A stretch of 64,000 bases of DNA from Pontederia crassipes (taxonomy: Eukaryota; Streptophyta; Magnoliopsida; Commelinales; Pontederiaceae), in assembly GCA_030549335.1 (NCBI GenBank), contig JAUKPH010000026.1, positions 1,054,001 through 1,118,000 of the forward strand, written 5' to 3'. The notes under the pieces are model-generated. The model worked only from the letters and a program-made list of their open reading frames with translations, searched no databases and was not told the DNA's origin. Below, piece by piece: positions 18,561-50,910 of the stretch. The translations under genes and the position numbers were made by a program. How positions within the stretch are numbered: position 1 is the stretch's first letter; each line of letters opens with the position of its first letter.

Positions 18561-19310
18561 GATGCATGGTGAGATGATTGGGACGAAAAAAGGACTCAGG
18601 CACAAATTTTCCGGGGGTGAGAAATTTCGCGCGCGCGCCTTTTACTCGTGTTTTCATCCAAGAAGGTCAAAAATGCGAAATTTTTGACGCGTCAAAAGAT
18701 GTCAAATTTTCGACGCTATCATGCCTATTGATGCATGGTGAGATGATTGGGACGAAAAAAAGGACTCAGGCGCAAATTTTCCGGAGGTGCAAAATTTCGC
18801 ACGCGCGCCTTTTACTCGTGTTTTCAACCAAGAAGGTCAAAAAATGCGAAATTTTTGACGCTATCAAAAGATGCCAAATTTTCGACGCTTTCGTGCCTAT
18901 TGATGCATGGTGGGGACGAAAAAAAGGACTCATGCGCAAATTTTCCGGGTGTGCGAAATTTCACGCGCGCGCCTTTTACTCGTGTTTTCAGCCAAGAAGG
19001 TCAAAAAATGCGAAATTTTTGACGGTGTCAAAAGATGCCAAATTTTCGACACTATCGTGCATGTTGATGCATGGTGAGATGATTGGGACGAAAAAAAGGA
19101 CTCAGGCGCAAATTTTCCGGGGGTGCGAAATTTCGCGCGCGCGCCTTGTACTCGTGTTTTCAAAAAACGCGAAATTTTTGACGCTGTCAAAAGATGCCAA
19201 ATTTTCGACGCTATCGTGCATGTTGATGCATGGTGAGATGATTGGGACGAAAAAAGGACTCAGGCACAAATTTTCCGGGGATGCGAAATTTCGCGCGCGC
19301 TTTTTACTCG
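18560..19310 (+). repeat. Disordered monomers with deletions
   Basis: Between the 13-mer and 4-mer blocks the units do not fit a clean HOR. At about 18,908-18,917 the sequence gatgcatggtggggacg has lost 8 bp relative to the usual unit. At about 19,160 gtgttttcaaaaaacgc has lost 13 bp (the gccaagaagg segment) between two tca triplets. Units here mix features of both neighbouring blocks. Confidence 0.75.
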
Positions 19311-20690: not shown

Positions 20691-23600
20691 GCCAAGAAGG
20701 TCAAAAATGCGAAATTATTGACGCTGTCAAAAGATGCTAAATTTTCGACGCTTTCGTGCCTGTTGATGCATGGTGAGATGATTGGGACGAAAAAATGGAT
20801 GCGGATGAAAATTTTTCGGGGGTGCGAAATTTCGCGCGCGCGCTTTTTACTCGTGTTTTCAGCCAAGAAGGTCAAAAAATGTGAAATTTTTGACGCTGTC
20901 AAAAGATGCCAAATTTTCGACGCTTTCGTGCCTGTTGATGCATGGTGAGATGATTGGGACGAAAAAATGAACTCGGATGAAAATTTTCCGGGGGTGCGAA
21001 ATTTCACGCGCGCGCTTTTTACTCGTGTTTTCAGCCAAGTTGGTCAAAAAACGCGAATTTTTTGACGCTGTCAAAAGATGCCAAATTTTCGACGCTTTCG
21101 TGCCTGTTGATGCATGGTGAGATGATTGGGACGAAAAAAAGGACTCAGGCGCAAATTTTTCGGGGGTGCGAAATTTCGCGCGCGCGCTTTTTACTCGTGT
21201 TTTCAGCCAAGAAGGTCAAAAAACGCGAAATTTTTGACGTTGTCAAAAGATGCAAAATTTTCGACGCTTTCGTGCCTGTTGATGCATGGTGACATGATTG
21301 GGAAGAAAAAATGGACTCGGATGAAAATTTTTCGGGGGTGAGAAATTTCGTGCGCGCGCTATTCACTCGTGTTTTCAGCCAAGAAGGTCAAAAAATGCGA
21401 AATTTTTGACGCTGTCAAAAGATGCCAAATTTTCGACGCTATCGTGCCTGTTGATGCATGGTGAGCTGATTGGGACGAAAAAATGGACTCGGATGAAAAT
21501 TTTCCGGGGGTGCGAAATTTCGCGCGCGCGCTTTTTACTCGTGTTTTCAGCCAAGAAGGTCAAAAAATGTGAAATTTTTGACGCTGTCAAAAGATGCCAA
21601 ATTTTTGACGCTTTCGTGCCTGTTGATGCATGGTGAGATGATTGGGACGAAAAAATGGACTCGGATGAAAATTTTCCGGGGGTGCGAAATTTCGCGCGCG
21701 CGCTTTTTACTCGTGTTTTCAGCCAAGTAGGTCAAAAAACGCGAATTTTTGACGCTGTCAAAAGATGCCAAATTTTCGACGCTTTCGTGCCTGTTGATGC
21801 ATGGTGAGATGATTGGGACGAAAAAAAGGACTCAGGCGCAAATTTTCCAGGGGTGCGAAATTTCGCGCGCGATTTTTACTCGTGTTTTCAGCCAAGAAGG
21901 TCAAAAAACGCGAAATTTTTGACGTTGTCAAAAGATGCAAAATTTTCGACGCTTTCGTGCCTGTTGATGCATGGTGACATGATTGGGAAGAAAAAATGGA
22001 CTCGGATGAAAATTTTTCGGGGGTGAGAAATTTCGTGCGCGCGCTATTCACTCGTGTTTTCAGCCAAGAAGGTCAAAAAATGCGAAATTTTTGATGTTGT
22101 CAAAAGATGCAAAATTTTCGACGCTTTCGTGCTTGTTGATGCATGGTGACATGATTGGGAAGAAAAAATGGACTCGGATGGAAATTTTCCAGGGGTGAGA
22201 AATTTCGCGCTCGCGCTATTCACTCGTGTTTTCAGCCAAGAAGGTCAAAAAATGCGAAATTTTTTACGCTGTCAAAAGATGCAAAATTTTCGACGCTATC
22301 GTTCCTGTTGATGCATGGTGAGATGATTGGGACGAAAAAAAGTACTCAGATGCAAATTTTCCGGGGGTGCGAAATTTTGCGCGCGCGCCTTTTACTCGTG
22401 TTTTCAGCCAAGAAGGTCAAAAAACGCAAAATTTTTGACGCTGTCAAAAGATGCCAAATTTTCGACGCTTTCGTGCCTGTTGATGCAAGGTGAGATGATT
22501 GGGACAAAAAAATGGACTCGGATGAAAATTTTTCGGGGGTGCGAAATTTCGCGCGCGCGCTTTTTACTCGTGTTTTCAGCCAAGAAGGTCAAAAATGCGA
22601 AATTATTGACGCTGTCAAAAGATGCTAAATTTTCGACGCTTTCGTGCCTGTTGATGCATGGTGAGATGATTGGGACGAAAAAATGGACGCGGATGAAAAT
22701 TTTTCGGGGGTGCGAAATTTCGCGCGTGCGCTTTTTACTCGTGTTTTCAGCCAAGAAGGTCAAAAAATGTGAAATTTTTGACGCTGTCAAAAGATGCCAA
22801 ATTTTTGACGCTTTCGTGCCTGTTGATGCATGGTGAGATGATTGGGACGAAAAAATGGACTCGGATGAAAATTTTCCGGGGGTGCGAAATTTCGCGCGCG
22901 CGCTTTTTACTCGTGTTTTCAGCCAAGTAGGTCAAAAAACGCGAATTTTTTGACGCTGTCAAAAGATGCCAAATTTTCGACGCTTTCGTGCCTGTTGATG
23001 CATGGTGAGATGATTGGGACGAAAAAAAGGACTCAGGCGCAAATTTTTCGGGGGTGCGAAATTTCGCGCGCGCGCTTTTTACTCGTGTTTTCAGCCAAGA
23101 AGGTCAAAAAACGCGAAATTTTTGACGTTGTCAAAAGATGCAAAATTTTCGACGCTTTCGTGCCTGTTGATGCATGGTGACATGATTGGGAAGAAAAAAT
23201 GGACTCGGATGAAAATTTTTCGGGGGTGAGAAATTTCGTGCGCGCGCTATTCACTCGTGTTTTCAGCCAAGAAGGTCAAAAAATGCGAAATTTTTGACGC
23301 TGTCAAAAGATGCCAAATTTTCGACGCTATCGTGCCTGTTGATGCATGGTGAGCTGATTGGGACGAAAAAATGGACTCGGATGAAAATTTTCCGGGGGTG
23401 CGAAATTTCGCGCGCGCGCTTTTTACTCGTGTTTTCAGCCAAGAAGGTCAAAAAATGTGAAATTTTTGACGCTTTCAAAAGATGCCAAATTTTTGACGCT
23501 TTCGTGCCTGTTGATGCATGGTGAGATGATTGGGACGAAAAAATGGACTCGGATGAAAATTTTCCGGGGGTGCGAAATTTCGCGCGCGCGCTTTTTACTC

Positions 23601-24794
23601 GTGTTTTCAGCCAAGTAGGTCAAAAAACGCGAATTTTTGACGCTGTCAAAAGATGCCAAATTTACGACGCTTTCGTGCCTGTTGATGCATGGTGAGATGA
23701 TTGGGACGAAAAAAAGGACTCAGGCGCAAATTTTCCGGGGGTGCGAAATTTCGCGCGCGCTTTTTACTCGTGTTTTCAGCCAAGAAGGTCAAAAAACGCG
23801 AAATTTTTGACGTTGTCAAAAGATGCAAAATTTTCGACGCTTTCGTGCCTGTTGATGCATGGTGACATGATTGGGAAGAAAAAATGGACTCGGATGAAAA
23901 TTTTTCGGGGGTGAGAAATTTCGTGCGCGCGCTATTCACTCGTGTTTTCAGCCAAGAAGGTCAAAAAACGCGAAATTTTTGACGTTGTCAAAAGATGCAA
24001 AATTTTCGACGCTTTCGTGCTTGTTGATGCATGGTGACGTGATTGGGAAGAAAAAATGGACTCGGATGGAAATTTTCCAGGGGTGAGAAATTTCGCGCTC
24101 GCGCTATTCACTCGTGTTTTCAGCCAAGAAGGTCAAAAAATGCAAAATTTTGTACGCCGTCAAAAGATGCCAAATTTTCAACGCTTTCGTGCCTGTTGAT
24201 GCATGGTGAGATGATTGGGATGAAAAAATTGACTCGGATGAAAATTTTTCGGGGGTGCGAAATTTCGCGCGCGCGCTTTTTACTCGTGTTTTCAGCCAAG
24301 AAGGTCAAAAAACGCGAATTTTTTGACGCTGTCAAAAGATGCCAAATTTTCGACGCTTTCGTGCCTGTTGATGCATGGTGAGATGATTGGGACGAAAAAA
24401 TGGACTCGGATGAAAATTTTCCGTGGGTGCGAAATTTCGCGCGCACGCTTTTTACTCGTGTTTTCAACCAAGAAGGTCAAAAAACGCGAATTTTTTGACG
24501 CTGTCAAAAGATGCCAAATTTTTGACGCTTTCGTGCCTGTTGATGCATGGTGAGATGATTGGGACGAAAAAATGGACTCGGATGAAAATTTTCCGGGGGT
24601 GCGAAATTTCGCGCGCGCGCTTTTTACTCGTGTTTTCAGCCAAGTAGGTCAAAAAACGCGAATTTTTGACGCTGTCAAAAGATGCCAAATTTACGACGCT
24701 TTCGTGCCTGTTGATGCATGGTGAGATGATTGGGACGAAAAAAAGGACTCAGGCGCAAATTTTCCGGGGGTGCGAAATTTCGCGCGCGCTTTTT
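20334..24794 (+). repeat. 26-monomer HOR, copy 1 (4,461 bp)
   Basis: Positions in this copy recur at +4,461 and +8,922. It has internal structure: 20.33-22.2 kb and 22.2-24.1 kb match each other at an offset of 1,888 bp (11 monomers), followed by four more monomers, giving 11+11+4. Private markers are gtcaaaaatgcgaaattattg (20,701 and 22,589), the short gcgcgcgattttta tract (about 21,866) and gcaaaattttgtacgccg (about 24,142). Confidence 0.9.
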
Positions 24795-27700
24795 ACTCGT
24801 GTTTTCAGCCAAGAAGGTCAAAAAACGCGAAATTTTTTACGCTGTCAAAAGATGCAAAATTTTCGACGCTATCGTTCCTGTTGATGCATGGTGAGATGAT
24901 TGGGATGAAAAAAAGTACTCAGACGCAAATTTTCCGCGGGTGCGAAATTTTGTGCGCGTGCCTTTTACTTTTGTTTTCAGCCAAGAAGGTCAAAAAACGC
25001 AAAATTTTTGACGCTGTCAAAAGATGCCAAATTTTCGACGCTTTCGTGCCTATTGATGCAAGGTGAGATGATTGGGACAAAAAAATGGACTCGGATGAAA
25101 ATTTTTCGGGGGTGCGAAATTTCGCGCGCGCGCTTTTTACTCGTGTTTTCAGCCAAGAAGGTCAAAAATGCGAAATTATTGACGCTGTCAAAAGATGCTA
25201 AATTTTCGACGCTTTCGTGCCTGTTGATGCATGGTGAGATGATTGGGACGAAAAAATGGATGCGGATGAAAATTTTTCGGGGGTGCGAAATTTCGCGCGC
25301 GCGCTTTTTACTCGTGTTTTCATCCAAGAAGGTCAAAAAATGTGAAATTTTTGACGCTGTCAAAAGATGCCAAATTTTCGACGCTTTCGTGCCTGTTGAT
25401 GCATGGTGAGATGATTGGGACGAAAAAATGGACTCGGATGAAAATTTTCCGGGGGTGCGAAATTTCGCGCGCGCGCTTTTTACTCGTGTTTTCAGCCAAG
25501 TTGGTCAAAAAACGCGAATTTTTTGACGCTGTCAAAAGATGCCAAATTTTCGACGCTTTCGTGCCTGTTGATGCATGGTGAGATGATTGGGACGAAAAAA
25601 AGGACTCAGGCGCAAATTTTTCGGGGGTGCGAAATTTCGCGCGCGCGCTTTTTACTCGTGTTTTCAGCCAAGAAGGTCAAAAAACGCGAAATTTTTGACG
25701 TTGTCAAAAGATGCAAAATTTTCGACGCTTTCGTGCCTGTTGATGCATGGTGACATGATTGGGAAGAAAAAATGGACTCGGATGAAAATTTTTCGGGGGT
25801 GAGAAATTTCGTGCGCGCGCTATTCACTCGTGTTTTCAACCAAGAAGGTCAAAAAATGCGAAATTTTTGACGCTGTCAAAAGATGCCAAATTTTCGACGC
25901 TATCGTGCCTGTTGATGCATGGTGAGCTGATTGGGACGAAAAAATGGACTCGGATGAAAATTTTCCGGGGGTGCGAAATTTCGCGCGCGCGCTTTTTACT
26001 CGTGTTTTCAGCCAAGAAGGTCAAAAAATGTGAAATTTTTGACGCTGTCAAAAGATGCCAAATTTTTGACGCTTTCGTGCCTGTTGATGCATGGTGAGAT
26101 GATTGGGACGAAAAAATGGACTCGGATGAAAATTTTCCGGGGGTGCGAAATTTCGCGCGCGCGCTTTTTACTCGTGTTTTCAGCCAAGTAGGTCAAAAAA
26201 CGCGAATTTTTGACGCTGTCAAAAGATGCCAAATTTTCGACGCTTTCGTGCCTGTTGATGCATGGTGAGATGATTGGGACGAAAAAAAGGACTCAGGCGC
26301 AAATTTTCCAGGGGTGCGAAATTTCGCGCGCGATTTTTACTCGTGTTTTCAGCCAAGAAGGTCAAAAAACGCGAAATTTTTGACGTTGTCAAAAGATGCA
26401 AAATTTTCGACGCTTTCGTGCCTGTTGATGCATGGTGACATGATTGGGAAGAAAAAATGGACTCGGATGAAAATTTTTCGGGGGTGAGAAATTTCGTGCG
26501 CGCGCTATTCACTCGTGTTTTCAGCCAAGAAGGTCAAAAAATGCGAAATTTTTGATGTTGTCAAAAGATGCAAAATTTTCGACGCTTTCGTGCTTGTTGA
26601 TGCATGGTGACATGATTGGGAAGAAAAAATGGACTCGGATGGAAATTTTCCAGGGGTGAGAAATTTCGCGCTCGCGCTATTCACTCGTGTTTTCAGCCAA
26701 GAAGGTCAAAAAACGCGAAATTTTTTACGCTGTCAAAAGATGCAAAATTTTCGACGCTATCGTTCCTGTTGATGCATGGTGAGATGATTGGGACGAAAAA
26801 AATTACTCAGATGCAAATTTTCCGGGGGTGCGAAATTTTGCGCGCGCGCCTTTTACTCGTGTTTTCAGCCAAGAAGGTCAAAAAACGCAAAATTTTTGAC
26901 GCTGTCAAAAGATGCCAAATTTTCGACGCTTTCGTGCCTGTTGATGCAAGGTGAGATGATTGGGACAAAAAAATGGACTCGGATGAAAATTTTTCGGGGG
27001 TGCGAAATTTCGCGCGCGCGCTTTTTACTCGTGTTTTCAGCCAAGAAGGTCAAAAATGCGAAATTATTGACGCTGTCAAAAGATGCTAAATTTTCGACGC
27101 TTTCGTGCCTGTTGATGCATGGTGAGATGATTGGGACGAAAAAATGGACGCGGATGAAAATTTTTCGGGGGTGCGAAATTTCGCGCGTGCGCTTTTTACT
27201 CGTGTTTTCAGCCAAGAAGGTCAAAAAATGTGAAATTTTTGACGCTGTCAAAAGATGCCAAATTTTTGACGCTTTCGTGCCTGTTGATGCATGGTGAGAT
27301 GATTGGGACGAAAAAATGGACTCGGATGAAAATTTTCCGGGGGTGCGAAATTTCGCGCGCGCGCTTTTTACTCGTGTTTTCAGCCAAGTAGGTCAAAAAA
27401 CGCGAATTTTTTGACGCTGTCAAAAGATGCCAAATTTTCGACGCTTTCGTGCCTGTTGATGCATGGTGAGATGATTGGGACGAAAAAAAGGACTCAGGCG
27501 CAAATTTTTCGGGGGTGCGAAATTTCGCGCGCGCGCTTTTTACTCGTGTTTTCAGCCAAGAAGGTCAAAAAACGCGAAATTTTTGACGTTGTCAAAAGAT
27601 GCAAAATTTTCGACGCTTTCGTGCCTGTTGATGCATGGTGACATGATTGGGAAGAAAAAATGGACTCGGATGAAAATTTTTCGGGGGTGAGAAATTTCGT

Positions 27701-29255
27701 GCGCGCGCTATTCACTCGTGTTTTCAGCCAAGAAGGTCAAAAAATGCGAAATTTTTGACGCTGTCAAAAGATGCCAAATTTTCGACGCTATCGTGCCTGT
27801 TGATGCATGGTGAGCTGATTGGGACGAAAAAATGGACTCGGATGAAAATTTTCCGGGGGTGCGAAATTTCGCGCGCGCGCTTTTTACTCGTGTTTTCAGC
27901 CAAGAAGGTCAAAAAATGTGAAATTTTTGACGCTGTCAAAAGATGCCAATTTTTTGACGCTTTCGTGCCTGTTGATGCATGGTGAGATGATTGGGACGAA
28001 AAAATGGACTCGGATGAAAATTTTCCGGGGGTGCGAAATTTCGCGCGCGCGCTTTTTACTCGTGTTTTCAGCCAAGTAGGTCAAAAAACGCGAATTTTTG
28101 ACGCTGTCAAAAGATGCCAAATTTACGACGCTTTCGTGCCTGTTGATGCATGGTGAGATGATTGGGACGAAAAAAAGGACTCAGGCGCAAATTTTCCGGG
28201 GGTGCGAAATTTCGCGCGCGCTTTTTACTCGTGTTTTCAGCCAAGAAGGTCAAAAAACGCGAAATTTTTGACGTTGTCAAAAGATGCAAAATTTTCGACG
28301 CTTTCGTGCCTGTTGATGCATGGTGACATGATTGGGAAGAAAAAATGGACTCGGATGAAAATTTTTCGGGGGTGAGAAATTTCGTGCGCGCGCTATTCAC
28401 TCGTGTTTTCAGCCAAGAAGGTCAAAAAACGCGAAATTTTTGACGTTGTCAAAAGATGCAAAATTTTCGACGCTTTCGTGCTTGTTGATGCATGGTGACA
28501 TGATTGGGAAGAAAAAATGGACTCGGATGGAAATTTTCCAGGGGTGAGAAATTTCGCGCTCGCGCTATTCACTCGTGTTTTCAGCCAAGAAGGTCAAAAA
28601 ATGCAAAATTTTGTACGCCGTCAAAAGATGCCAAATTTTCAACGCTTTCGTGCCTGTTGATGCATGGTGAGATGATTGGGATGAAAAAATTGACTCGGAT
28701 GAAAATTTTTCGGGGGTGCGAAATTTCGCGCGCGCGCTTTTTACTCGTGTTTTCAGCCAAGAAGGTCAAAAAACGCGAATTTTTTGACGCTGTCAAAAGA
28801 TGCCAAATTTTAGACGCTTTCGTGCCTGTTGATGCATGGTGAGATGATTGGGACGAAAAAATGGACTCGGATGAAAATTTTCCGTGGGTGCGAAATTTCG
28901 CGCGCACGCTTTTTACTCGTGTTTTCAACCAAGAAGGTCAAAAAACGCGAATTTTTTGACGCTGTCAAAAGATGCCAAATTTTTGACGCTTTCGTGCCTG
29001 TTGATGCATGGTGAGATGATTGGGACGAAAAAATGGACTCGGATGAAAATTTTCCGGGGGTGCGAAATTTCGCGCGCGCGCTTTTTACTCGTGTTTTCAG
29101 CCAAGTAGGTCAAAAAACGCGAATTTTTGACGCTGTCAAAAGATGCCAAATTTACGACGCTTTCGTGCCTGTTGATGCATGGTGAGATGATTGGGACGAA
29201 AAAAAGGACTCAGGCGCAAATTTTCCGGGGGTGCGAAATTTCGCGCGCGCTTTTT
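24795..29255 (+). repeat. 26-monomer HOR, copy 2 (4,461 bp)
   Basis: Nearly identical to copy 1 at an offset of 4,461 bp, with the same 11+11+4 substructure. The few differences seen by eye include aaattactcag at about 26,808 where copies 1 and 3 have aaagtactcag, and tgacatgattggg at about 28,496 where copy 1 has tgacgtgattggg. Such low divergence indicates recent amplification or gene conversion. Confidence 0.9.
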
Positions 29256-32200
29256 ACTCGTGTTTTCAGCCAAGAAGGTCAAAAAACGCGAAATTTTTTA
29301 CGCTGTCAAAAGATGCAAAATTTTCGACGCTATCGTTCCTGTTGATGCATGGTGAGATGATTGGGATGAAAAAAAGTACTCAGACGCAAATTTTCCGCGG
29401 GTGCGAAATTTTGTGCGCGTGCCTTTTACTTTTGTTTTCAGCCAAGAAGGTCAAAAAACGCAAAATTTTTGACGCTGTCAAAAGATGCCAAATTTTCGAC
29501 GCTTTCGTGCCTATTGATGCAAGGTGAGATGATTGGGACAAAAAAAAGGACTCGGATGAAAATTTTTCGGGGGTGCGAAATTTCGCGCGCGCGCTTTTTA
29601 CTCGTGTTTTCAGCCAAGAAGGTCAAAAATGCGAAATTATTGACGCTGTCAAAAGATGCTAAATTTTTGACGCTTTCGTGCCTGTTGATGCATGGTGAGA
29701 TGATTGGGACGAAAAAATGGATGCGGATGAAAATTTTTCGGGGGTGCGAAATTTCGCGCGCGCGCTTTTTACTCGTGTTTTCATCCAAGAAGGTCAAAAA
29801 ATGTGAAATTTTTGACGCTGTCAAAAGATGCCAAATTTTCGACGCTTTCGTGCCTGTTGATGCATGGTGAGATGATTGGGACGAAAAAATGGACTCGGAT
29901 GAAAATTTTCCGGGGGTGCGAAATTTCGCGCGCGCGCTTTTTACTCGTGTTTTCAGCCAAGTTGGTCAAAAAACGCGAATTTTTTGACGCTATCAAAAGA
30001 TGCCAAATTTTCGACGCTTTCGTGCCTGTTGATGCATGGTGAGATGATTGGGACGAAAAAAAGGACTCAGGCGCAAATTTTTCGGGGGTGCGAAATTTCG
30101 CGCGCGCGCTTTTTACTCGTGTTTTCAGCCAAGAAGGTCAAAAAACGCGAAATTTTTGACGTTGTCAAAAGATGCAAAATTTTCGACGCTTTCGTGCCTG
30201 TTGATGCATGGTGACATGATTGGGAAGAAAAAATGGACTCGGATGAAAATTTTTCGGGGGTGAGAAATTTCGTGCGCGCGCTATTCACTCGTGTTTTCAG
30301 CCAAGAAGGTCAAAAAATGCGAAATTTTTGACGCTGTCAAAAGATGCCAAATTTTCGACGCTATCGTGCCTGTTGATGCATGGTGAGCTGATTGGGACGA
30401 AAAAATGGACTCGGATGAAAATTTTCCGGGGGTGCGAAATTTCGCGCGCGCGCTTTTTACTCGTGTTTTCAGCCAAGAAGGTCAAAAAATGTGAAATTTT
30501 TGACGCTGTCAAAAGATGCCAAATTTTTGACGCTTTCGTGCCTGTTGATGCATGGTGAGATGATTGGGACGAAAAAATGGACTCGGATGAAAATTTTCCG
30601 GGGGTGCGAAATTTCGCGCGCGCGCTTTTTACTCGTGTTTTCAGCCAAGTAGGTCAAAAAACGCGAATTTTTGACGCTGTCAAAAGATGCCAAATTTTCG
30701 ACGCTTTCGTGCCTGTTGATGCATGGTGAGATGATTGGGACGAAAAAAAGGACTCAGGCGCAAATTTTCCAGGGGTGCGAAATTTCGCGCGCGATTTTTA
30801 CTCGTGTTTTCAGCCAAGAAGGTCAAAAAACGCGAAATTTTTGACGTTGTCAAAAGATGCAAAATTTTCGACGCTTTCGTGCCTGTTGATGCATGGTGAC
30901 ATGATTGGGAAGAAAAAATGGACTCGGATGAAAATTTTTCGGGGGTGAGAAATTTCGTGCGCGCGCTATTCACTCGTGTTTTCAGCCAAGAAGGTCAAAA
31001 AATGCGAAATTTTTGATGTTGTCAAAAGATGCAAAATTTTCGACGCTTTCGTGCTTGTTGATGCATGGTGACATGATTGGGAAGAAAAAATGGACTCGGA
31101 TGGAAATTTTCCAGGGGTGAGAAATTTCGCGCTCGCGCTATTCACTCGTGTTTTCAGCCAAGAAGGTCAAAAAACGCGAAATTTTTTACGCTGTCAAAAG
31201 ATGCAAAATTTTCGACGCTATCGTTCCTGTTGATGCATGGTGAGATGATTGGGACGAAAAAAAGTACTCAGATGCAAATTTTCCGGGGGTGCGAAATTTT
31301 GCGCGCGCGCCTTTTACTCGTGTTTTCAGCCAAGAAGGTCAAAAAACGCAAAATTTTTGACGCTGTCAAAAGATGCCAAATTTTCGACGCTTTCGTGCCT
31401 GTTGATGCAAGGTGAGATGATTGGGACAAAAAAATGGACTCGGATGAAAATTTTTCGGGGGTGCGAAATTTCGCGCGCGCGCTTTTTACTCATGTTTTCA
31501 GCCAAGAAGGTCAAAAATGCGAAATTATTGACGCTGTCAAAAGATGCTAAATTTTCGACGCTTTCGTGCCTGTTGATGCATGGTGAGATGATTGGGACGA
31601 AAAAATGGACGCGGATGAAAATTTTTCGGGGGTGCGAAATTTCGCGCGTGCGCTTTTTACTCGTGTTTTCAGCCAAGAAGGTCAAAAAATGTGAAATTTT
31701 TGACGCTGTCAAAAGATGCCAAATTTTTGACGCTTTCGTGCCTGTTGATGCATGGTGAGATGATTGGGACGAAAAAATGGACTCGGATGAAAATTTTCCG
31801 GGGGTGCGAAATTTCGCGCGCGCGCTTTTTACTCGTGTTTTCAGCCAAGTAGGTCAAAAAACGCGAATTTTTTGACGCTGTCAAAAGATGCCAAATTTTC
31901 GACGCTTTCGTGCCTGTTGATGCATGGTGAGATGATTGGGACGAAAAAAAGGACTCAGGCGCAAATTTTTCGGGGGTGCGAAATTTCGCGCGCGCGCTTT
32001 TTACTCGTGTTTTCAGCCAAGAAGGTCAAAAAACGCGAAATTTTTGACGTTGTCAAAAGATGCAAAATTTTCGACGCTTTCGTGCCTGTTGATGCATGGT
32101 GACATGATTGGGAAGAAAAAATGGACTCGGATGAAAATTTTTCGGGGGTGAGAAATTTCGTGCGCGCGCTATTCACTCGTGTTTTCAGCCAAGAAGGTCA

Positions 32201-33510
32201 AAAAATGCGAAATTTTTGACGCTGTCAAAAGATGCCAAATTTTCGACGCTATCGTGCCTGTTGATGCATGGTGAGCTGATTGGGACGAAAAAATGGACTC
32301 GGATGAAAATTTTCCGGGGGTGCGAAATTTCGCGCGCGCGCTTTTTACTCGTGTTTTCAGCCAAGAAGGTCAAAAAATGTGAAATTTTTGACGCTGTCAA
32401 AAGATGCCAAATTTTTGACGCTTTCGTGCCTGTTGATGCATGGTGAGATGATTGGGACGAAAAAATGGACTCGGATGAAAATTTTCCGGGGGTGCGAAAT
32501 TTCGCGCTGCGCGCTTTTTACTCGTGTTTTCAGCCAAGTAGGTCAAAAAACGCGAATTTTTGACGCTGTCAAAAGATGCCAAATTTACGACGCTTTCGTG
32601 CCTGTTGATGCATGGTGAGATGATTGGGACGAAAAAAAGGACTCAGGCGCAAATTTTCCGGGGGTGCGAAATTTCGCGCGCGCTTTTTACTCGTGTTTTC
32701 AGCCAAGAAGGTCAAAAAACGCGAAATTTTTGACGTTGTCAAAAGATGCAAAATTTTCGACGCTTTCGTGCCTGTTGATGCATGGTGACATGATTGGGAA
32801 GAAAAAATGGACTCGGATGAAAATTTTTCGGGGGTGAGAAATTTCGTGCGCGCGCTATTCACTCGTGTTTTCAGCCAAGAAGGTCAAAAAACGCGAAATT
32901 TTTGACGTTGTCAAAAGATGCAAAATTTTCGACGCTTTCGTGCTTGTTGATGCATGGTGACATGATTGGGAAGAAAAAATGGACTCGGATGGAAATTTTC
33001 CAGGGGTGAGAAATTTCGCGCTCGCGCTATTCACTCGTGTTTTCAGCCAAGAAGGTCAAAAAATGCAAAATTTTGTACGCCGTCAAAAGATGCCAAATTT
33101 TCAACGCTTTCGTGCCTGTTGATGCATGGTGAGATGATTGGGATGAAAAAATTGACTCGGATGAAAATTTTTCGGGGGTGCGAAATTTCGCGCGCGCGCT
33201 TTTTACTCGTGTTTTCAGCCAAGAAGGTCAAAAAACGCGAATTTTTTGACGCTGTCAAAAGATGCCAAATTTTCGACGCTTTCGTGCCTGTTGATGCATG
33301 GTGAGATGATTGGGACGAAAAAATGGACTCGGATGAAAATTTTCCGGGGGTGCGAAATTTCGCGCGCACGCTTTTTACTCGTGTTTTCAACCAAGAAGGT
33401 CAAAAAACGCGAATTTTTTGACGCTGTCAAAAGATGCCAAATTTTTGACGCTTTCGTGCCTGTTGATGCATGGTGAGATGATTGGGACGAAAAAATGGAC
33501 TCGGATGAAA
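29256..33510 (+). repeat. 26-monomer HOR, copy 3 (incomplete, ~4,255 bp)
   Basis: Follows copies 1 and 2 unit by unit. Near 33,510 it departs: a ttttcggggg replaces ttttccggggg, and at 33,567 ccaagaagg replaces the ccaagtagg expected at this HOR position. About 1.2 monomers of the 26 are missing. A private one-base insertion, cgcgctgcgcgc, lies near 32,504. Confidence 0.87.
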
Positions 33511-33860
33511 ATTTTTCGGGGGTGCGAAATTTCGCGCGCGCGCTTTTTACTCGTGTTTTCAGCCAAGAAGGTCAAAAAATGCGATATTTTTGACGCTGTC
33601 AAAAGATGCCAAATTTCGACGCTTTCGTGCCTGTTGATGCATGGTGAGATGATTGGGAAGAAAAAATGGACTCGGATGAAAATTTTCTGGGGGTGAGAAA
33701 TTTCGCGCGCGCGCTATTCACTCGTGTTTTGAGCCAAGAAGGTCAAAAAACGCGAAATTTTTTACGCTGTCAAAAGATGCAAAATTTTCGACGCTATCGT
33801 GCCTGTTGAAGCATGGTGAGATGATTGGGACGAAAAAAAGGACTCAAACGCAAATTTTCC

Positions 33861-33871
33861 GGGGGGGGGGG
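33861..33871 (+). repeat. 11-base G homopolymer
   Basis: The usual ccgggggtgcg of the monomer is replaced by cc followed by eleven G and then caaaa. This is the longest G run in the window. It is either polymerase slippage in a degraded unit or a sequencing/assembly error. Confidence 0.85.
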
Positions 33872-34928
33872 CAAAATTTCGCGCGCGCGCCTTTTACTCG
33901 TATTTTCAGCCAAGAAGGTCAAAAAATGCGAAATTTTTGACGTTGTCAAAAGATGCCAAATTTTCGACGCTTTCGTGCCTGTTGATGCATGGTGAGATGA
34001 TTGGAAGAAAAAATGGACTCGGATGAAAATTTTCCGGGGGTGAGAAATTTCGCGCGCAGCGCTATTCACTCGTGTTTTCAGCAAGAAGGTCAAAAAATGC
34101 GAAATTTTTTACGCTGTCAAAAGATGCAAAATTTCGACGCTATCATGCCTATTGATGCATGGTGAGATGATTGGGACGAAAAAAAGGACTCAGACGCAAA
34201 TTTTCTGGGGGTGCAAAATTTCGCGTGCGCGCCTTTTACTCGTGTTTTCAGCCAAAAAGGTCAAAAAACGCAAAATTTTTGACGCTGTCAAAAGATGCCA
34301 AATTTTTTACGCTTTCGTGCCTGTTGATGCATGGTGAGATGATTGGGACGAAAAAATGTACTCGGATGAAAATTTTCCGGGGGTGAGAAATTTCGCGCGC
34401 GCGCTTTTAACTCGTGTTTCAGCCAAGATGGTCAAAAACGCGAAATTTTTTACGCTGTCAAAAGATGCCAAATTTTCGACGCTTTCGTGTCTGTTGATGC
34501 ATGGTGAGATGATTGGGACGAAAAAAAGGACTCAGGCGCAAATTTTCCGGGGGTGCGAATTTTCGCGCGGCGCGCCTTTTACTCGTATTTTCAGCCAAGA
34601 AGGTCAAAAAATGCGAAATTTTTGACGTTATCAAAAGATGCCAAATTTTCGACGCTTTCGTGCCTGTTGATGCATGGTGAGATGATTGGGAAGAAAAAAA
34701 TGGACTCGGATGAAAATTTTCCGGGGTGAGAAATTTCGCGCGCGCTATTCACTTGTGTTTTCAGCCAAGAAGGTCAAAAAATGCGAAATTTTTTACGCTG
34801 TCAAAAGATGCAAATTTTTTACGCTTTCATGCCTGTTGATGCATGGTGAGATGATTGGGACGAAAAAATGTACTCGGATGAAAATTTTCCGGGGGTGAGA
34901 AATTTCGCGCGCGCGCTTTTAACTCGTG

Positions 34929-34934
34929 TTTTCA
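34929..34934. other. Inversion junction between the two array arms
   Basis: Left of the join the monomer reads in + orientation up to actcgtgttttca (phase about 96). To the right, from tcccaatcatctcacc, it reads as the reverse complement starting at phase about 25. The six bases ttttca fit both sides: the left continuation would be gccaag, and the right-hand predecessor, seen in the sister copy near 35,780, is a T-run ending ttttca. There is no spacer, and the two phases differ, so the arms do not form a symmetrical perfect palindrome at the join. Confidence 0.93.
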
Positions 34935-35387
34935 TCCCAATCATCTCACCATGCATCAACAGGCACGAAAGCGTCGAAAATTTGGTATCTTTTGACAGCG
35001 TAAAAAAAATTTGCGTTTTGTACCTTCTTGGCTGAAAATGCGGGTAAAAGGCGCGCACGCGAAATTTTGCATCCCGGAATATTTGCGCTTGAGTCCTTTT
35101 TTTTCATCCCAATCATCTCACCATGCATCAACAGGCACGAAAGCGTCGAAAATTTGGCATCTTTTGATAGCGTAAAAAATTTTGCGTTTTTTGACCTTCT
35201 TGCTGAAAACACGAGTAAAAGGCGCGCGCGCGAAATTTCGCACCCCCGAAAAATTTGCGTCTGAGTCCTTTTTTTCATCCCAATCATCTCACCATGCATC
35301 AACAGGCACGATAGCGTCGAAAATTTTGCATCTTTTGACAGCGTAAAAAATTCGCGTTTTTTGACCTTCTTGGCTGAAAACACGAGT

Positions 35388-35402
35388 GGATAGTGTTCTC
35401 AC
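35388..35402 (-). repeat. Monomer lacking the CG tract and palindrome half (copy 1)
   Basis: The sequence acgagtggatagtgttctcaccc replaces the usual run of alternating CG plus gaaattt, a deletion of about 15 bp covering the whole Z-DNA-prone segment. The same lesion appears near 37,609-37,623. Confidence 0.75.
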
Positions 35403-37608
35403 CCCCGGAAAATTTTCATCTGAGTCCATTTTTTCTTCCCAATCATCTCACCATGCATCAATAGGCACGAAAGCGTCGAAAATTTGTCAACTTTTTACAG
35501 CGTCAAAAATTCAGGTTTTTTGACCTTCTTGGCTGAAAACACGACTAAAAAGCGCGCGCGCGAAATTTCGCACACCGGAAAATTTTCATCCGAGTCCATT
35601 TTTTTCGTCCCAATCATCTCACCATGCATCAACAGGCACGAAAGCGTCGAAAATTTGGCATCTTTTGACAGCGTCAAAAATTTCGCATTTTTTGACCTTC
35701 TTGGCTGAAAACACGAGTGATTAGCGCGCGCGCGAAATTTCGCACCCCCGAAAAATTTTCTTCTGAGTCCATTTTTTCATCCCAATCATCTCACCATGCA
35801 TCAACAGGCACGAAAGCGTCGAAAATTTGGTATCTTTTGACAGCGTAAAAAAATTTGCGTTTTGTACCTTCTTGGCTGAAAATACGGGTAAAAGGCGCGC
35901 ACGCGAAATTTCGCATCCCCGGAATATTTGCGCTTGAGTCCTTTTTTTTCATCCCAATCATCTCACCATGCATCAACAGGCACGAAAGCGTCGAAAATTT
36001 GGCATCTTTTGATAGCGTCAAAATTTTCGCATTTTTTTGACCTTCTTGGCTGAAAACACAAGTAAAAAGCGCGCGCGCGAAATTTCGCACCGCGAAAAAT
36101 TTTCATCCGAGTCCATTTTTTCGTCCCAATCATCTCACCATGCATCAACAGGCACGAAAGCGTCGAAAATTTGGCATCTTTTGATAGCGTAAAAAATTTT
36201 GCGTTTTTTACCTTCTTGGCTGAAAATACGGGTACAAGGCGCGCTGCGCGCGAAATTTCGCACCCCCGGAAAATTTGCGCCTGAGTCCTTTTTTTTTGTC
36301 CCAATCATCTCACCATGCATCAACAGGCACGAAAGCGTCGAAAATTTGGCATCTTTTGACAGCGTCAAAAATTTTGCATTTTTTGACCTTCTTGGCTGAA
36401 AACACGAGTAAAAGACGCGCGCGCGAAATTTTGCACCCCCGAAAAATTTGCGCCTGAGTCCTTTTTTTCGTCCCAACCATCTCACCATGCATCAACAGGC
36501 ACGAAAGCGTCGAAAATTTGGCAACTTTTTACAGCGTCAAAAATTTCAGGTTTTTTGACCTTCTTGGCTGAAAACACGAGTAAAAAGCGCGCGCGCGAAA
36601 TTTCGCACCCCGGAAAATTTTCATCCGAGTCCATTTTTTTCGTCCCAATAATCTCACCATGCATCAACAGGCACGAAAGCGTCAAAAATTTGGCATCTTT
36701 TGACAGCGTAAAAAATTTTGCATTTTTTGACCTTCTTGGCTGAAAACACGAGTAAAAGGTGCGCGCGCGAAATTTCGCACCCTCGGAAAATATGCGTCTG
36801 TGTCCTTTTTTTCGTCCCAATCATCTCACCATGCATCAACAGGCCGATAGCGTCAAAAATTTTGCATCTTTTGATAGCGTAAAAAATTTCGTGTTTTTTG
36901 ACCTTCTTGGTTGAAAACACGAGTGAATAGCGCTGCGCGCGAAATTTCTCACCCCCGGAAAATTTTCATCCGAGTCCATTTTTTCTTCCCAATCATCTCA
37001 CCATGCATCAACAGGCATCAGAACGTCGAAAATTTGGCATCTTTTGACAACGTCAAAAATTTTGCATTTTTTGACCTTCTTGGCTGAAAATACGAGTAAA
37101 AGACGCGCGCGCGAAATTTCGCACACCCGAAAAATTTGCGCCTGAGTCCTTTTTTTCGTCCCAATCATCTCACCATGCATCAATAGGCACGAAAGCGTAA
37201 AAAATTTGGCATCTTTTGACAGCGTAAAAAATTTTGCGTTTTTTGACCTTGGCTGAAAACAAGAGTAAAAAGCGCGAACACGAAATTTCGCACCCCCAAA
37301 AAATTTTCATCCGAGTCCATTTTTTCGTCCCAATCATCTCACCATGCATCAACAGGCACGAAAGCGTCGAAAATTTGGCATCTTTTGACAGCGTAAAAAA
37401 TTTTGCGTTTTTTGACCTTCTTGGCTGAAAACACGAGTAAAAGGCGCGCGCGCGAAATTTCGCACCCCCGAAAAATTTGTGTCTGAGTCCTTTTTTTCAT
37501 CCCAATCATCTCATCATGCATCAACAGGCACGATAGCGTCGAAAATTTTGCATCTTTTGACAGCGTAAAAAATTCGCGTTTTTTGACCTTCTTGGCTGAA
37601 AACACGAG

Positions 37609-37623
37609 TTAATAGTGTTCTCA
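37609..37623 (-). repeat. Monomer lacking the CG tract and palindrome half (copy 2)
   Basis: The sequence gttaatagtgttctcaccc carries the same deletion as the unit at 35,388, about 2,220 bp away, so the deleted monomer was duplicated as part of a 13-monomer segment. Confidence 0.75.
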
Positions 37624-39139
37624 CCCCCGGAAAATTTTCATCCGAGTCCATTTTTTCTTCCCAATCATCTCACCATGCATCAACAGGCATGAAAGCGTCG
37701 AAAATTTGGCATCTTTTGACAGCGTCAAAAATTTTGCATTTTTTGACCTTCTTGGCTGAAAAGACGAGTAAAAAGCGCGCGCGCGAAATTTCGCACCCCC
37801 GAAAAATTTTCATCCGAGTCCATTTTTTCGTCCCAATCATCTCATCATGCATCAACAGGCACGAAAGCGTCGAAAATTTGGCATCTTTTGACAGTGTCAA
37901 AAATTTCGCATTTTTTGACCTTCTTGCTGAAAAAACAAGTAAAACGCGCGCGCGCGAAATTTCGCACAACGAAAAATTTTCATCCGAGTCCATTTTTTCG
38001 TCCCAATCATCTCACCATGCATCAACAGGCACGAAAGCGTCGAAAATTTGGCATCTTTTGACAGCGTAAAAAATTTTGCGTTTTTTACCTTCTTGGCTGA
38101 AAATACGGGTAAAAGGCGCGCGCGCGAAATTTCGCACCCCCGAAAAATTTGAGCCTGAGTCCTTTTTTTTCGTCCCAATCATCTCACCATGCATCAACAG
38201 GCACGAAAGCGTCGAAAATTTGGCATCTTTTGACAGCGTCAAAAATTTTGCATTTTTTGACCTTCTTGGCTGAAAACACGAGTAAAAAGCGCGCGCTGCG
38301 AAATTTCGCACCCCTGGAAAATTTGCGCCTGAGTCCTTTTTTTCGTCCCAATCATCTCACCATGCATCAACAGGCACGAAAGCGTCGAAAATTTGGCAAC
38401 TTTTTACAGCGTCAAAAATTTCAGGTTTTTTGACCTTCTTGGCTGAAAACACGGGTAAAAAGCGCGCGCGCGAAATTTCGCACCCCGGAAAATTTTCATC
38501 CGAGTCCATTTTTTTCATCCCAATCATCTCACCATGCATCAACAGGCACGAAAGCGTCGAAAATTTGGCATCTTTTGACAGCGTCAAAAATTTCGCATTT
38601 TTTGACCTTCTTGGCTGAAAACACGAGTGAATAGCGCGCGCCCAAAATTTCGCACCCCCGAAAAATTTTCATCCGAGTCCATTTTTTCGTCCCAATCATC
38701 TCACCATGCATCAACTGGCACGAAAGCGTCGAAAATTTGGCATCTTTTGACAGCGTCAAAAATTTCGCATTTTTTGACCTTCTTGACTGAAAACACGAGT
38801 AAAAAGCGCGCGCAGCGAAATTTTGCACCCCCGGAAAATTTGCGCCTGAGTCCTTTTTTTCGTCCCAATCATCTCACCATGCATCAACAGGAACGATAGC
38901 GTCAAAAATTTGGCATCTTTTGACATCGTCAAAAATTTTGCGTTTTTTTGACCTTCTTGGCTGAAAACACGAGTGAAAAGCGCGCCCGCGAAATTTCGCA
39001 CCCCGGAAAATTTTCATCCGAGTCCATTTTTTTCGTCCCAATCATCTCACCATGCATCAACAGGCACAAAAGCGTCAAAAATTTGGCATCTTTTGACAGC
39101 GTCAAAAATTTCGCATTTTTTGACCTTCTTGGCTGAAAA

Positions 39140-39910
39140 CACGAGTGAATAGCGCGCGCGCGAAATTTCGCACCCCCGAAAAATTTTCATCCGAGTCCAT
39201 TTTTTCGTCCCAGTCATCTCACCATGCATCAACAGGCACGAAAGCGTTGAAAATTTGGCATCTTTTGACAACGTCAAAAATTTCGCATTTTTTGACCTTC
39301 TTGGCTGAAAATACGAGTAAAAGGCGCACGCGCGAAATTTCGCACCCCCGAAAAATTTGCGTCTGAGTCCTTTTTTTCGTCCCAATCATCTCACCATGCA
39401 TCAACAGGAACGATAGCGTCGAAAATTTGGCATCTTTTGACAGCGTAAAAAATTTCGCGTTTTTTTGACCTTCTTGGCTGAAAACACGAGTGAATAGCGC
39501 ACGCGCAAACTTTCTCACCCCCGGAAAATTTTCATCCGAGTCCATTTTTTCTTCCCAATCATCTCACCATGCATCAACAGGCACGAAAGCGTCAAAAATT
39601 TGGCATATTTTGACAGCGTAAAAAATTTCACATTTTTTGACCTTCTTGGCTGAAAACACGAGTAAAAAGCGCGCGCGCGAAATTTCGCGCCCCCGAAAAA
39701 TTTTCATCCGAGTCCATTTTTTCGTCCCAATCATCTCACCATGCATCAACAAGCACGAAAGCGTCAACAATTTGGCATCTTTTGACAACGTCAAACATTT
39801 TGCATTTTTTGATCTTCTTGGCTGAAAACACGAGTAAAAGGCGCGCGCGCGAAATTTCGCCCCCCCGGAAAATTTGCGTCCGAGTCCTTTTTTTCGTCCC
39901 AATCATCTCA
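39140..39910 (-). repeat. Start of the reverse-arm HOR family
   Basis: The monomers here (gaatagcgcacgcgcaaac with ctcaccccc and ttcttccc near 39,495-39,556, then gaaatttcgcgccccc near 39,680) are the same ordered series that precedes the HOR marker in every later copy. The regular family therefore begins around this point. Confidence 0.7.
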
Positions 39911-45412: not shown

Positions 45413-48333
45413 CCATGCTTCAACAGGCACGATAGCGTCGAAAATTTTGCATCTTTTGACAGCGTCAAAAATTTCTCATTTTTTGACCTTCTTGGCTGAA
45501 AACACGAGTAAAAGGCGCGCGCGCGAAATTTCGCACCCCCAGAAAATTTGCGCCTGAGTCCTTTTTTTCATCCCAATCATCTCACCATGCATCAACAAGC
45601 ACGAAAGCGTCGAAAATTTGGCATCTTTTGACAGCGTAAAAATTTCACATTTTTTGGCCTTCTTGGCTGAAAACACGAGTAAAAGGCGCGCGCGCGAAAT
45701 TTCGCACCCTGGAAAATTTGCACCAGAGTCTTTTTTTCTTCCCATCATCTCACCTTGCATAAACAGGCACGAAAGCGTCGAAAATTTGGCATCTTTTGAT
45801 AGCGTCAAAAATTTCGCATTTTTTGATCTTCTTGGCTGAAAACACGAGTTAAAGTCGCGCAGGCGAAATTTCGCACCCCCGGAAAATTTTCATCCGAGTC
45901 CATTTTTTCGTCCAAATCATCTCACCATGCATCAACAGGCACGAAAGCGTAAAAAATTTGGCATCTTTTGACAGCGTCAAAAATTTCGCATTTTTTGACC
46001 TTCTTGACTGAAAACACGAGTAAAAGGCGCGCGCGCGAAATTTCGACCACCGGAAAATTTGCGCCTGAGTCCTTTTTTTTCGTCCCAATCATCTCACCCT
46101 GCATCAACAGACATGAAAGCGTCGAAAATTTGGCCTCTTTTGACAGCGTCAAAAATTTCGCATTTTTTGACCATCTTGGCTGAAAACACGAGTAAAAGGC
46201 GCGCGCGCGAAATTTTGCACCATCGGAAAATTTGCGCCTGAGTCCTTTTTTTCATCCCAATCATCTCACCATGCATCAACAGGCACGAACGCGTCGAAAC
46301 TTTGGAATATTTTGACAGCGTCAAAAAATTTCGCATTTTTTGACCTTCTTGGCTGACAACACGAGTAAAAGGCGCGGGCGCGAAATTTCGCACTCCCGGA
46401 AAATTTGCGCCAGAGTCCATTTTTTCGTCCCAATCATCTCACCATGCATCAACAGGCACGAAAGCGTCGAAAATTTGGCATCTTTTGACAGCGTCAAAAA
46501 TTTCACATTTTTTGACCTTCTTGGTTGAAAACACGAGTAAAAAGCGCGCACGCGAAAATTCGCACCCCCGGAAAATTTGCGCCTGAGTCCTTTTTTTCGT
46601 CCCAATCATCTCACCATGCATCAACAGGCACGATAGCGTCAAAAATTTGGCATCTTTTGACAGCGTCAAAAATTTCGCATTTTTTGACCTTCTTGGCTGA
46701 AAACCCGAGTAAAAAGTGCGCGCGCAAAATTTCGCACCCCCGGAAAATTTTCATCCGAGTCCATTTTTTTCGTCCCAATCATCTCACCATGCATCAACAG
46801 GCACGAAAGCGTCGAAAATTTGGCATCTTTTGACAGCCTCAAAAATTTCGCATTTTTTGACCTTTTTGGCTGAAAACACGAGAAAAAAGCGCGCGCGCGA
46901 AATTTCGCACCCCCGAAAAATTTTCATCCGAGTCCATTTTTTCGTCCCAATCATCTCACCATGCATCAACAGGCACGAAAGCGTCGAAAATTTGGCATCT
47001 TTTGACAGCGTCAAAAATTTTGCATTTTTTGATCTTCTTGGCTGAAAACATGAGTAAAAGGCGCGCACGCGAAATTTCGCACCCCCGGAAAATTTGCGCC
47101 TGAGTCCTTTTTTTCGTCCCAATCATCTCACCATGCATCAACAGGCACGATAGTGTCGAAAGTTTGGCCTCTTTTGACAGCGTCAAAAATTTTGCATTTT
47201 TTGACGTTCTTGGCTGAAAACACGAGTAAAAGGCGCGCGCAGCGAAATTTCGCACCCCCGAAAAATTTGCGCCTGAGTCCTTTTTTTCATCCCAACCATC
47301 TCACCATGCATCAACAGACACGAAAGCGTCAAAAATTTGGCATCTTTTGACAGCGTCAAAAATTTCGCATTTTTTTACCTTCTTAGCTGAAAACAAGAGT
47401 AAAAGGCGCGCGCGCGAAATTTCGCACCCCCAAAAAATTTGCGCCTGAGTCCTTTTTTTCGTCCCAATCATCTCACCATGCATAAACTACGAAAGCGTCG
47501 AAAATTTGGCATCTTTTGACAGCGTCAAAAATTTCGCGTTTTTTGACCTTCTTGGCTGAAAACACGAGTAAAAAGCGCGCGCGCGAAATTTCGCACCCCC
47601 AAAAAATTTTCATCCGAGTCCATTTTTTCGTCCCAGTCATCTCACCATGCATCAACAGGCACAAAAGCGTCAAAAATTTGGCATCTTTTGACAGCGTCAA
47701 AAATTTCGCATTTTTTGACCTTCTTGGCTGAAAACACGAGTAAAAGGCGCGCATACGAAATTTCGCACCCCCGAAAAATTTGCGTCTGAGTCCTTTTTTT
47801 CGTCCCAATCATCTCACCATGCATCAACAGGAACGATAGCGTCGAAAATTTGGCATCTTTTGACAGCGTAAAAAATTTCGCGTTTTTTTGACCTTCTTGG
47901 CTGAAAACACGAGTGAATAGCGCACGCGCAAACTTTCTCACCCCCGGAAAATTTTCATCCGAGTCCATTTTTTCTTCCCAATCATCTCACCATGCATCAA
48001 CAGGCACGAAAGCGTCGAAAATTTGGCATCTTTTGACAGCGTCAAAAATTTCACATTTTTTGACCTTCTTGGCTGAAAACACGAGTAAAAAGCGCGCGCG
48101 CGAAATTTCGCGCCCCCGAAAAATTTTCATCCGAGTCCATTTTTTCGTCCCAATCATCTCACCATGCATCAACAGGCACGAAAGCGTAAAAAATTTGGCA
48201 TCTTTTGACAACGTCAAACATTTTGCATTTTTTGATCTTCTTGGCTGAAAACACGAGTAAAAGGCGCGCGCACGAAATTTTGCCCCCCCGGAAAATTTGC
48301 GTCCGAGTCCTTTTTTTCGTCCCAATCATCTCA
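45413..48333 (-). repeat. Reverse-arm HOR copy, 2,921 bp (17 monomers)
   Basis: Matches the preceding 17-mer unit by unit, including gcaccatcgg near 46,217 and cactcccgg near 46,391, with small indels such as gcgcgcgcagcg near 47,236. Confidence 0.85.
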
Positions 48334-50910
48334 CCATGCTTCAACGGGCACGATAGCGTCGAAAATTTTGCATCTTTTGACAGCGTCAAAAATTTCTCAT
48401 TTTTTGACCTTCTTGGCTGAAAACACGAGTAAAAGGCGCGCGCGCGAAATTTCGCACCCCCGGAAAATTTGTGCCTGAGTCCTTTTTTTCATCCCAATCA
48501 TCTCACCATGCATCAACAGGCACGAAAGCGTCGAAAATTTGGCATCTTTTGACAGCGTAAAAATTTCACATTTTTTGACCTTCTTGGCTGAAAACACGAG
48601 TAAAAGGCGCGCGCGCGAAATTTCGCACCCTCGGAAAATTTGCACCAGAGTCTTTTTTTCTTCCCATCATCTCACCTTGCATAAACAGGCACGAAAGCGT
48701 CGAAAATTTGGCATCTTTTGACAGCGTCAAAAATTTCGCATTTTTTGATCTTCTTGGCTGAAAACACGAGTTAAAGTCGCGCAGGCGAAATTTCGCACCC
48801 CCGGAAAATTTTCATCCGAGTCCATTTTTTCGTCCAAATCATCTCACCATGCATCAACAGGCACGAAAGCGTAAAAAATTTGGCATCTTTTGACAGCGTC
48901 AAAAATTTCGCATTTTTTGACCTTCTTGACTGAAAACACGAGTAAAAGGCGCGCGCAGCGAAATTTCGCACCCCCGGAAAATTTGCGCTTGAGTCCTTTT
49001 TTTCGTCCCAATCATCTCACCATGCATCAACAGGCACAATAGCGTCAAAAATTTGGCATCTTTTGACGGCGTCAAAAATTTCGCATTTTTTGACCTTCTT
49101 GGCTGAAAACCCGAGTAAAAAGTGCGCGCGCGAAATTTCGCACCCCCGGAAAATTTTCATCCGAGTCCATTTTTTTCGTCCCAATCATCTCACCATGCAT
49201 CAACAGGCACGAAAGCATCAAAAATTTGGCATCTTTTGACAGCGTCTAAAATTTCGCACTTTTTGACCTTCTTGGCTGAAAACACGAGAAAAAAGCGCGC
49301 GCGCGAAATTTCGCACCCCCGAAAAATTTTCATCCGAGTCCATTTTTTCGTCCCAATCATCTCACCATGCATCAACAGGCACGAAAGCGTCGAAAATTTG
49401 GCATCTTTTGACAGCGTCAAAAATTTTGTATTTTTTGATCTTCTTGGCTGAAAACATGAGTAAAAGGCGCGCACGCGAAATTTCGCACCCCCGGAAAATT
49501 TGCGCCTGAGTCCTTTTTTTCGTCCCAATCATCTCACCATGCATCAACAGGCACGATAGTGTCGAAAGTTTGGCCTCTTTTGACAGCGTCAAAAATTTTG
49601 CATTTTTTGACCTTCTTGGCTGAAAACACGAGTAAAAGGCGCGCGCGCGAAATTTCGCACCCCCGAAAAATTTGCGCCTGAGTCCTTTTTTTCGTCCCAA
49701 TCATCTCACCATGCATCAACAGACACGAAAGCGTCAAAAATTTGGCATGTTTTGATAGCGTCAAAAATTTCGCATTTTTTTACCTTCTTAGCTGAAAACA
49801 CGAGTAAAAGGCGCGCGCGCGAAATTTCGCACCCCCGAAAAATTTGCGCCTGAGTCCTTTTTTTCGTCCCAATCATCTCACCATGCATAAACTACGAAAG
49901 CGTCGAAAATTTGGCATCTTTTGACAGCGTCAAAAATTTCGCGTTTTTTGACCTTCTTGGCTGAAAACACGAGTAAAAAGCGCGCGCGCGAAATTTCGCA
50001 CGCCCGAAAAATTTGCATCCGAGTCCATTTTTTCGTCCCAATCATCTCACCATGCATCAACAGGCACAAAAGCGTCAAAAATTTGGCATCTTTTGACAGC
50101 GTCAAAAATTTCGCATTTTTTGACCTTCTTGGCTGAAAACACGAGTAAAAAGCGCACGCGCGAAATTTCGCACCCCCAAAAAATTTTCATCCGAGTCCAT
50201 TTTTTCGTCCCAGTCATCTCACCATGCATCAACAGGCATGAAAGCGTTGAAAATTTGGCATCTTTTGACAGCGTCAAAAATTTTGCATTTTTTGACCTTC
50301 TTGGCTGAAAACACGAGTAAAAGGCGCGCATACGAAATTTCGCACCCCCGAAAAATTTGCGTCTGAGTCCTTTTTTTCGTCCCAGTCATCTCACCATGCA
50401 TCAACAGGAATGATAGCGTCGAAAATTTGGCATCTTTTGACAGCGTAAAAAATTTCGCGTTTTTTTGACCTTCTTGGCTGAAAACACGAGTGAATAGCGC
50501 ACGCGCAAACTTTCTCACCCCCGGAAAATTTTCATCCGAGTCCATTTTTTCTTCCCAATCATCTCACCATGCATCAACAGGCACGAAAGCGTCGAAAATT
50601 TGGCATCTTTTGACAGCGTCAAAAATTTCACATTTTTTGACCTTCTTGGCTGAAAACACGAGTAAAAAGCGCGCGCGCGAAATTTCGCGCCCCCGAAAAA
50701 TTTTCATCCGAGTCCATTTTTTAGTCCCAATCATCTCACCATGCATCAACAGGCACGAAAACGTAAAAAATTTGGCATCTTTTGACAACGTCAAACATTT
50801 TGCATTTTTTGATCTTCTTGGCTGAAAACACGAGTAAAAGGCGCGCGCGCGAAATTTCGCCCCCCCGGAAAATTTGCGTCCGAGTCCTTTTTTTCGTCCC
50901 AATCATCTCA
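48334..50910 (-). repeat. Reverse-arm HOR copy, 2,577 bp (15 monomers)
   Basis: Marker to marker 2,577 bp. It lacks the gcaccatcgg and cactcccgg units present in the 17-mers, so it resembles the first 15-mer. It contains a private gcgtctaaaatttcgcac near 49,243, seen again near 62,457. Confidence 0.85.

Follow-up and report, generated by a model that had tools for sequence, protein, structure and literature searches.

The 64-kb window analysed here (the whole stretch of DNA under study, C26:1,054,001-1,118,000, in a 1.13-Gb assembly of 43 contigs) contains a head-to-head strand switch, at which two arms of one 172-bp satellite meet at a short shared word. The arms are different higher-order arrays, and we consider it probable, at roughly 65%, that end-joining or template-switch repair fused two oppositely oriented satellite segments; no function is implied. 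The switch is present in the assembled sequence, and it is of an ordinary, previously described kind.

The strand switch and its two arms

Tandem Repeats Finder places the 172-bp satellite across the whole window, end to end. The switch consists of the following elements.

1-34,931, forward strand: forward arm, 203 monomers of the 172-bp satellite (anchor scan, Tandem Repeats Finder)
34,929-64,000, reverse strand: reverse arm, 169 monomers of the same 172-bp satellite (Tandem Repeats Finder, anchor scan)
34,929-34,934, unstranded: the word TTTTCA, common to both arms, at the head-to-head switch (sequence, Tandem Repeats Finder)

The anchor scan of the window found 203 forward anchors from 47 to 34,838 and 169 reverse anchors from 34,935 to 63,937; every anchor left of the joint reads forward, and every one right of it reads reverse. 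Tandem Repeats Finder reported arrays at 1-34,934 (203.8 copies) and 34,929-63,999 (169.4 copies), which overlap by the 6 bp TTTTCA, and the GC skew changes sign at the joint. The same monomer family is found on both sides in opposite orientation, and unrelated sequence between the arms is absent. The preliminary description had given about 203 forward and then about 169 reverse monomers, a switch at 34,929-34,934 and a TTTTCA overlap free of foreign DNA, all of which these two methods bear out. It had also placed the arms at monomer phases of about 96 and about 25, in keeping with the GATGCATGG anchor numbering, in which TTTTCA lies at 92-97 in the forward and 24-29 in the reverse arm. When the anchor scan was extended to 264 kb around the joint, 787 forward anchors were followed by 743 reverse anchors and no further switch was seen.

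The two arms carry higher-order arrays of different period.

19,000-33,400 (limits approximate), forward strand: 26-mer (4,461 bp) higher-order array with near-identical copies (autocorrelation, monomer lag)
46,700-64,000 (start approximate), reverse strand: higher-order array of the reverse arm, a 14-mer of about 2.4 kb (monomer lag)

Autocorrelation reaches 0.774 at lag 4461 over 19,000-34,934, and a lag of 26 monomers gives a mean of 3.4 edits in the left arm. For the last 100 monomers of the right arm a lag of 14 was the best of the lags tried, with a mean of 7.1 edits. We compared 774 left with 732 right monomers, and the best run of eight monomers averaged 9.4 edits in antiparallel order and 9.6 in the parallel control. 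A single cross-arm pair lay within 2 edits in this comparison, against 670 such pairs inside the left arm and 2,664 inside the right arm. As no mirrored order was found among these monomers, the right arm is no recent mirror copy of the left, and a young mirror-image fold-back was rejected. The joint had previously been called the inversion of a satellite array, a wording that does not suit arms with different higher-order repeats and unmirrored monomer order.

The investigation of the whole contig found the satellite in five of 20 samples, including both contig ends, where it is reversed; the remaining 15 had no anchor. The middle satellite block spans at least 930 to 1,330 kb. It reads forward as far as 1,088.9 kb, reverse from there to a point between 1,238.6 and 1,248.0 kb, forward again up to about 1,281.1 kb, and reverse past that. 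The second forward-to-reverse switch, at about C26:1,280,980-1,281,190, is a patchwork made up of short satellite pieces in both orientations. The sample at C26:1,350,001-1,350,600 lacks the satellite anchor; its open reading frame of 200 aa encodes an integrase zinc-binding domain (PF17921) and probably belongs to a retrotransposon beside the array. This domain fits a plant, as do the COX1 matches, which in 5 of 6 places are free of stops when translated with the standard code.

Sequence at and beside the joint

Microhomology at the joint is suggested by the shared word, with support that is fair at best. Among random blunt joins of the two arms, at least 6 bp are shared in 0.83% if cuts are placed uniformly and in 0.14% if distinct products are counted; for at least 3 bp the figures are 7.7% and 2.3%. 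The word is unevenly distributed, as the complete TTTTCA is present in 1,270 of the 1,391 scored forward monomers versus 121 of the 1,246 scored reverse contexts. Most reverse contexts are without its A, and 1,122 of the 1,246 match 0 bases of the word, reading CGTCCC or similar, not CATCCC. Donor pairs drawn at random overlap by exactly 6 bp in 8.7% of cases and by none in 81.6%. The right-side monomers adjoining the joint do have the CATCCC form. The left stub (listed below) has a nearest relative that reads GTGTTTCAGCC; between this and the nearest relative of the right stub the overlap is reduced to TTT (3 bp). Depending on the donors, the overlap is therefore 6 bp for one plausible pair and 3 bp for the nearest relatives. 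Since the nearest relatives give 3 bp and most reverse contexts do not have the A, the evidence for microhomology is weak.

The joint lies within a zone of divergent monomers and cuts off a partial copy on each side.

33,465-39,402, unstranded: divergent-monomer zone across the joint, with nearest neighbours at 3-13 edits per monomer (nearest-neighbour comparison)
34,811-34,931, forward strand: left stub, a 99.2% copy of 34,299-34,419 at offset 512, truncated by the joint (sequence comparison)
34,929-35,173, reverse strand: right stub, an about 98.4% copy of 35,774-36,018 at offset 845, truncated by the joint (gapped alignment)

Nearest neighbours for the divergent zone were sought among the 1,613 monomers of the contig. 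In 6-kb bins over the rest of the window the nearest-neighbour medians are 0-2 edits. Values of 5-7 edits occur in some bins farther to the left on the contig, so divergent stretches are not peculiar to the joint. The right stub differs from 35,774-36,018 at four places in about 245 gapped columns, a match that is absent among the 40 ungapped matches listed. As both stub copies are cut by the joint, it is probably no older than these copies of about 98-99% identity, provided that gene conversion has not refreshed them. Being cut off does not in itself set the copies apart, since other pieces in the same zone, for instance 33,885-34,004 and 34,570-34,689, are 99% alike without touching the joint.

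A local duplication of about 1,875 bp (11 monomers, 97-98% identical, in three pieces) adjoins the joint at 36,058-38,628 of the window. The seven best matches listed for 34,000-34,500 all lie in the C20:7.52 Mb array, with up to 97.8% identity, which hints at exchange between contigs. For 33,465-34,000 and 34,680-34,934 the joint's own contig ranks first.

Other switches in the assembly

Our scan for switches used exact anchors, with head-to-head spacings of 46-228 and one tail-to-tail band of 111-171. It yielded the ten places listed below, where two longer rows nested within C17 and C20:9,139,842 were not counted separately. With two further switches on C26 the total comes to 12 candidates, of which 11 are additional to the window joint.

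Head-to-head candidates (eight): C16:27,136,298; C17:1,594,933; C18:18,068,850; C26:1,088,845 (the window joint); the remaining four on C20
Head-to-head candidates on C20: 4,971,423; 7,509,211; 9,139,842; 9,140,691
Tail-to-tail candidates (two): C12:11,799,258; C18:17,987,983

Long flanks were examined for three of these, namely the window joint, the C18 joint and the switch at C26:1,281 kb; the rest are candidates, possibly tiny inversions. The earlier remark that such joins are rarely visible at base level does not fit the 11 other candidates here, nor the thousands described for Tribolium madens (PMC13081366, as far as the portion available to us goes).

One of the candidates is similar to the window joint in its geometry. 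The joint at C18:18,068,934 (C18:18,068,843-18,068,962) is a simple head-to-head switch that agrees with the window joint in phase pair and in its anchor spacing of 97 bp. The C18 tail-to-tail match at 17,987,983 lies about 81 kb from it. On the left the C18 and window joints differ by 10 edits in 91 bp, and 65% of the compared monomers are equally close or closer; on the right there are 28 edits in the first 195 bp. Common descent of the two joints was rejected, as their flanks offer no supporting similarity. For an overlap of at least 5 bp and the searched spacing, two joints fall into the same phase class by chance with a probability of 0.04 per pair. A phase class and its mirror are one joint, which doubles this to about 0.08. 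Over the six pairs that four joints make, the match is not significant, and a breakpoint hot spot was rejected on these grounds. The set of shared words is limited, so a chance agreement of the C18 and C26 phases is not unlikely. Hairpin energetics do not single out the joint phase either. That switches recur at a preferred monomer position, as the shared phase pair, the 97-bp spacing and the unrelated flanks of C26:1,088,929 and C18:18,068,934 could be read, seems very doubtful to us. If it were true, the preferred position would be a weak spot built into the monomer, which repeatedly makes large inverted-repeat (macro-dyad) arrays.

Origin of the joint and comparable systems

In the origin that we favour, two separately homogenised blocks of one 172-bp satellite would have met head-to-head. 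Microhomology-assisted end joining may have mended a break inside the array, or a replication fork may have stalled and moved to another template. By either route a forward and a reverse segment would have become fused at a short T-rich word of 3-6 bp that both contain. Each side has its own higher-order repeat, and the monomers adjacent to the joint would have escaped homogenisation. We infer this repair route and order of events from several observations. The switch is single and clean, without foreign sequence, and its 6-bp overlap exceeds that of random joins. The arms are unmirrored, and both stubs are truncated copies of neighbouring sequence. The patchwork joint at C26:1,281,000 and the simple same-phase switch on C18 point in the same direction. 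Joints patched together from short pieces in both orientations are typical of template switching or polymerase-theta-type repair. All such traces can be blurred by later exchange within the array, and gene conversion could make the stubs look young. Microhomology-mediated joining or template switching had already been put forward in the preliminary description, and the abrupt, spacerless head-to-head switch with its short shared sequence fits it.

The same description had preferred this to a simple fold-back because of the unequal phases, an argument that fails: a loop in a tandem array yields just such a phase offset, which makes unequal phases compatible with fold-back. What does argue against a recent fold-back is the missing mirrored sequence. 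An old fold-back, in which a broken end paired with itself at TTTTC(A)/(T)GAAAA, formed a loop and was copied, and turnover then erased the mirror symmetry, seems unlikely to us, and it is the best placed of the alternatives. A loop of about 60 bp, with any number of monomers added, would be in keeping with the phase offset and the short overlap, and the identical phase pair on C18 also speaks in its favour. Human fold-back junctions have spacers and often 2-8 bp of microhomology; in the part of that study available to us a spacer loop was found in 21 of 21 sequenced junctions, with spacers of 766-70,466 bp, and microhomology in 13 of 21 (PMC3907307). These human duplications resemble the window in their inverted joint, short microhomology and offset between the arms, but their arms are copied from each other and the arms here are not. 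The left and right monomers nearest the joint differ by 8-35 edits, antiparallel runs are no better than the control, and the stubs suggest an age no greater than that of copies about 98-99% identical, all of which counts against an old fold-back. Nor is a hairpin with its 3' end at the joint favoured, as consensus phases 92-99 rank 50th to 121st of 172 in 3'-end pairing. In the window's own last 100 bases the end pairs in 12% of the ensemble, with another site as its partner. The joint itself folds strongly (z -6.66), as is expected for any head-to-head joint; shuffled sequences fold as well as the consensus monomer does (z 0.34). With these middling ranks and this consensus fold, a self-priming hairpin was rejected as the cause.

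A two-break inversion, in which the reverse block, starting at 1,088.9 kb and ending between 1,238.6 and 1,248.0 kb, was flipped in place, is somewhat less probable still. Forward orientation does resume within 1,238.6-1,248.0 kb, so a second breakpoint exists. A flip would predict that the block resembles the left flank at its far end and the next forward block at its near end. Neither likeness was seen, the nearest means being 14.3 edits (6 with 7 monomers) and 16.1 edits (18 with 12 monomers), which is a weak comparison with so few monomers. No swapped continuity was seen at the two C26 breakpoints, where few monomers were compared near the second joint. On average the reverse block stands 13.8 edits from the reverse array sampled at the contig start (33 monomers) and 17.4 edits from the left arm, a difference that may partly come from its lying nearer the consensus.

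We regard an assembly mis-join or chimeric read as about equally improbable. Satellite arrays pose difficulties for assembly, and both ends of the contig lie within the 172-bp satellite. Assemblers join on long overlaps, however, and the 3-6 bp at the joint are far from that. A fold-back read artefact would make a true palindrome, which the joint is not, and there are other candidate switches in the assembly, though these share any weakness that it has.

Among described systems the satellites of Tribolium madens come closest. The part of that work available to us reports thousands of base-level inversion sites, termed 'macro-dyad symmetries', which are 98.2-98.9% alike within a type (PMC13081366). 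As in the window, satellite arrays reverse at a base-level site and the turn can fold as a hairpin. One opposing subunit is divergent there, by 10.7% or 23.5% in two TmSat1 types, which is a further likeness. The difference is that the Tribolium sites are near-identical and number in the thousands, whereas the window joint brings together arms of unlike higher-order make-up (PMC13081366). We found no near-identical copies of the window joint of the Tribolium kind among the 40 scored of 3,753 first-look candidates, and in the same search (380 matches) the entire 261-bp joint matched only at its own place. In plants, array a2 of FabTR-10 in pea centromere 6 is also of uniform orientation save for one inverted portion, but it is a different locus in a different species, and the accessible part of the paper gives no base-level description of a joint (PMC10027222). 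The accessible parts of studies on chicken (PMC9974502) and Salicaceae (PMC12046899) mention nothing on joints within an array, and four 19-base words of the 172-bp monomer matched none of the papers searched.

By itself the window joint does not alter current knowledge. Strand switches resolved at base level preserve a record of how satellite arrays are broken and rejoined. The window joint is a clean example of this, which can be compared with local copies on both sides, and the genome offers a small comparative set of candidates.
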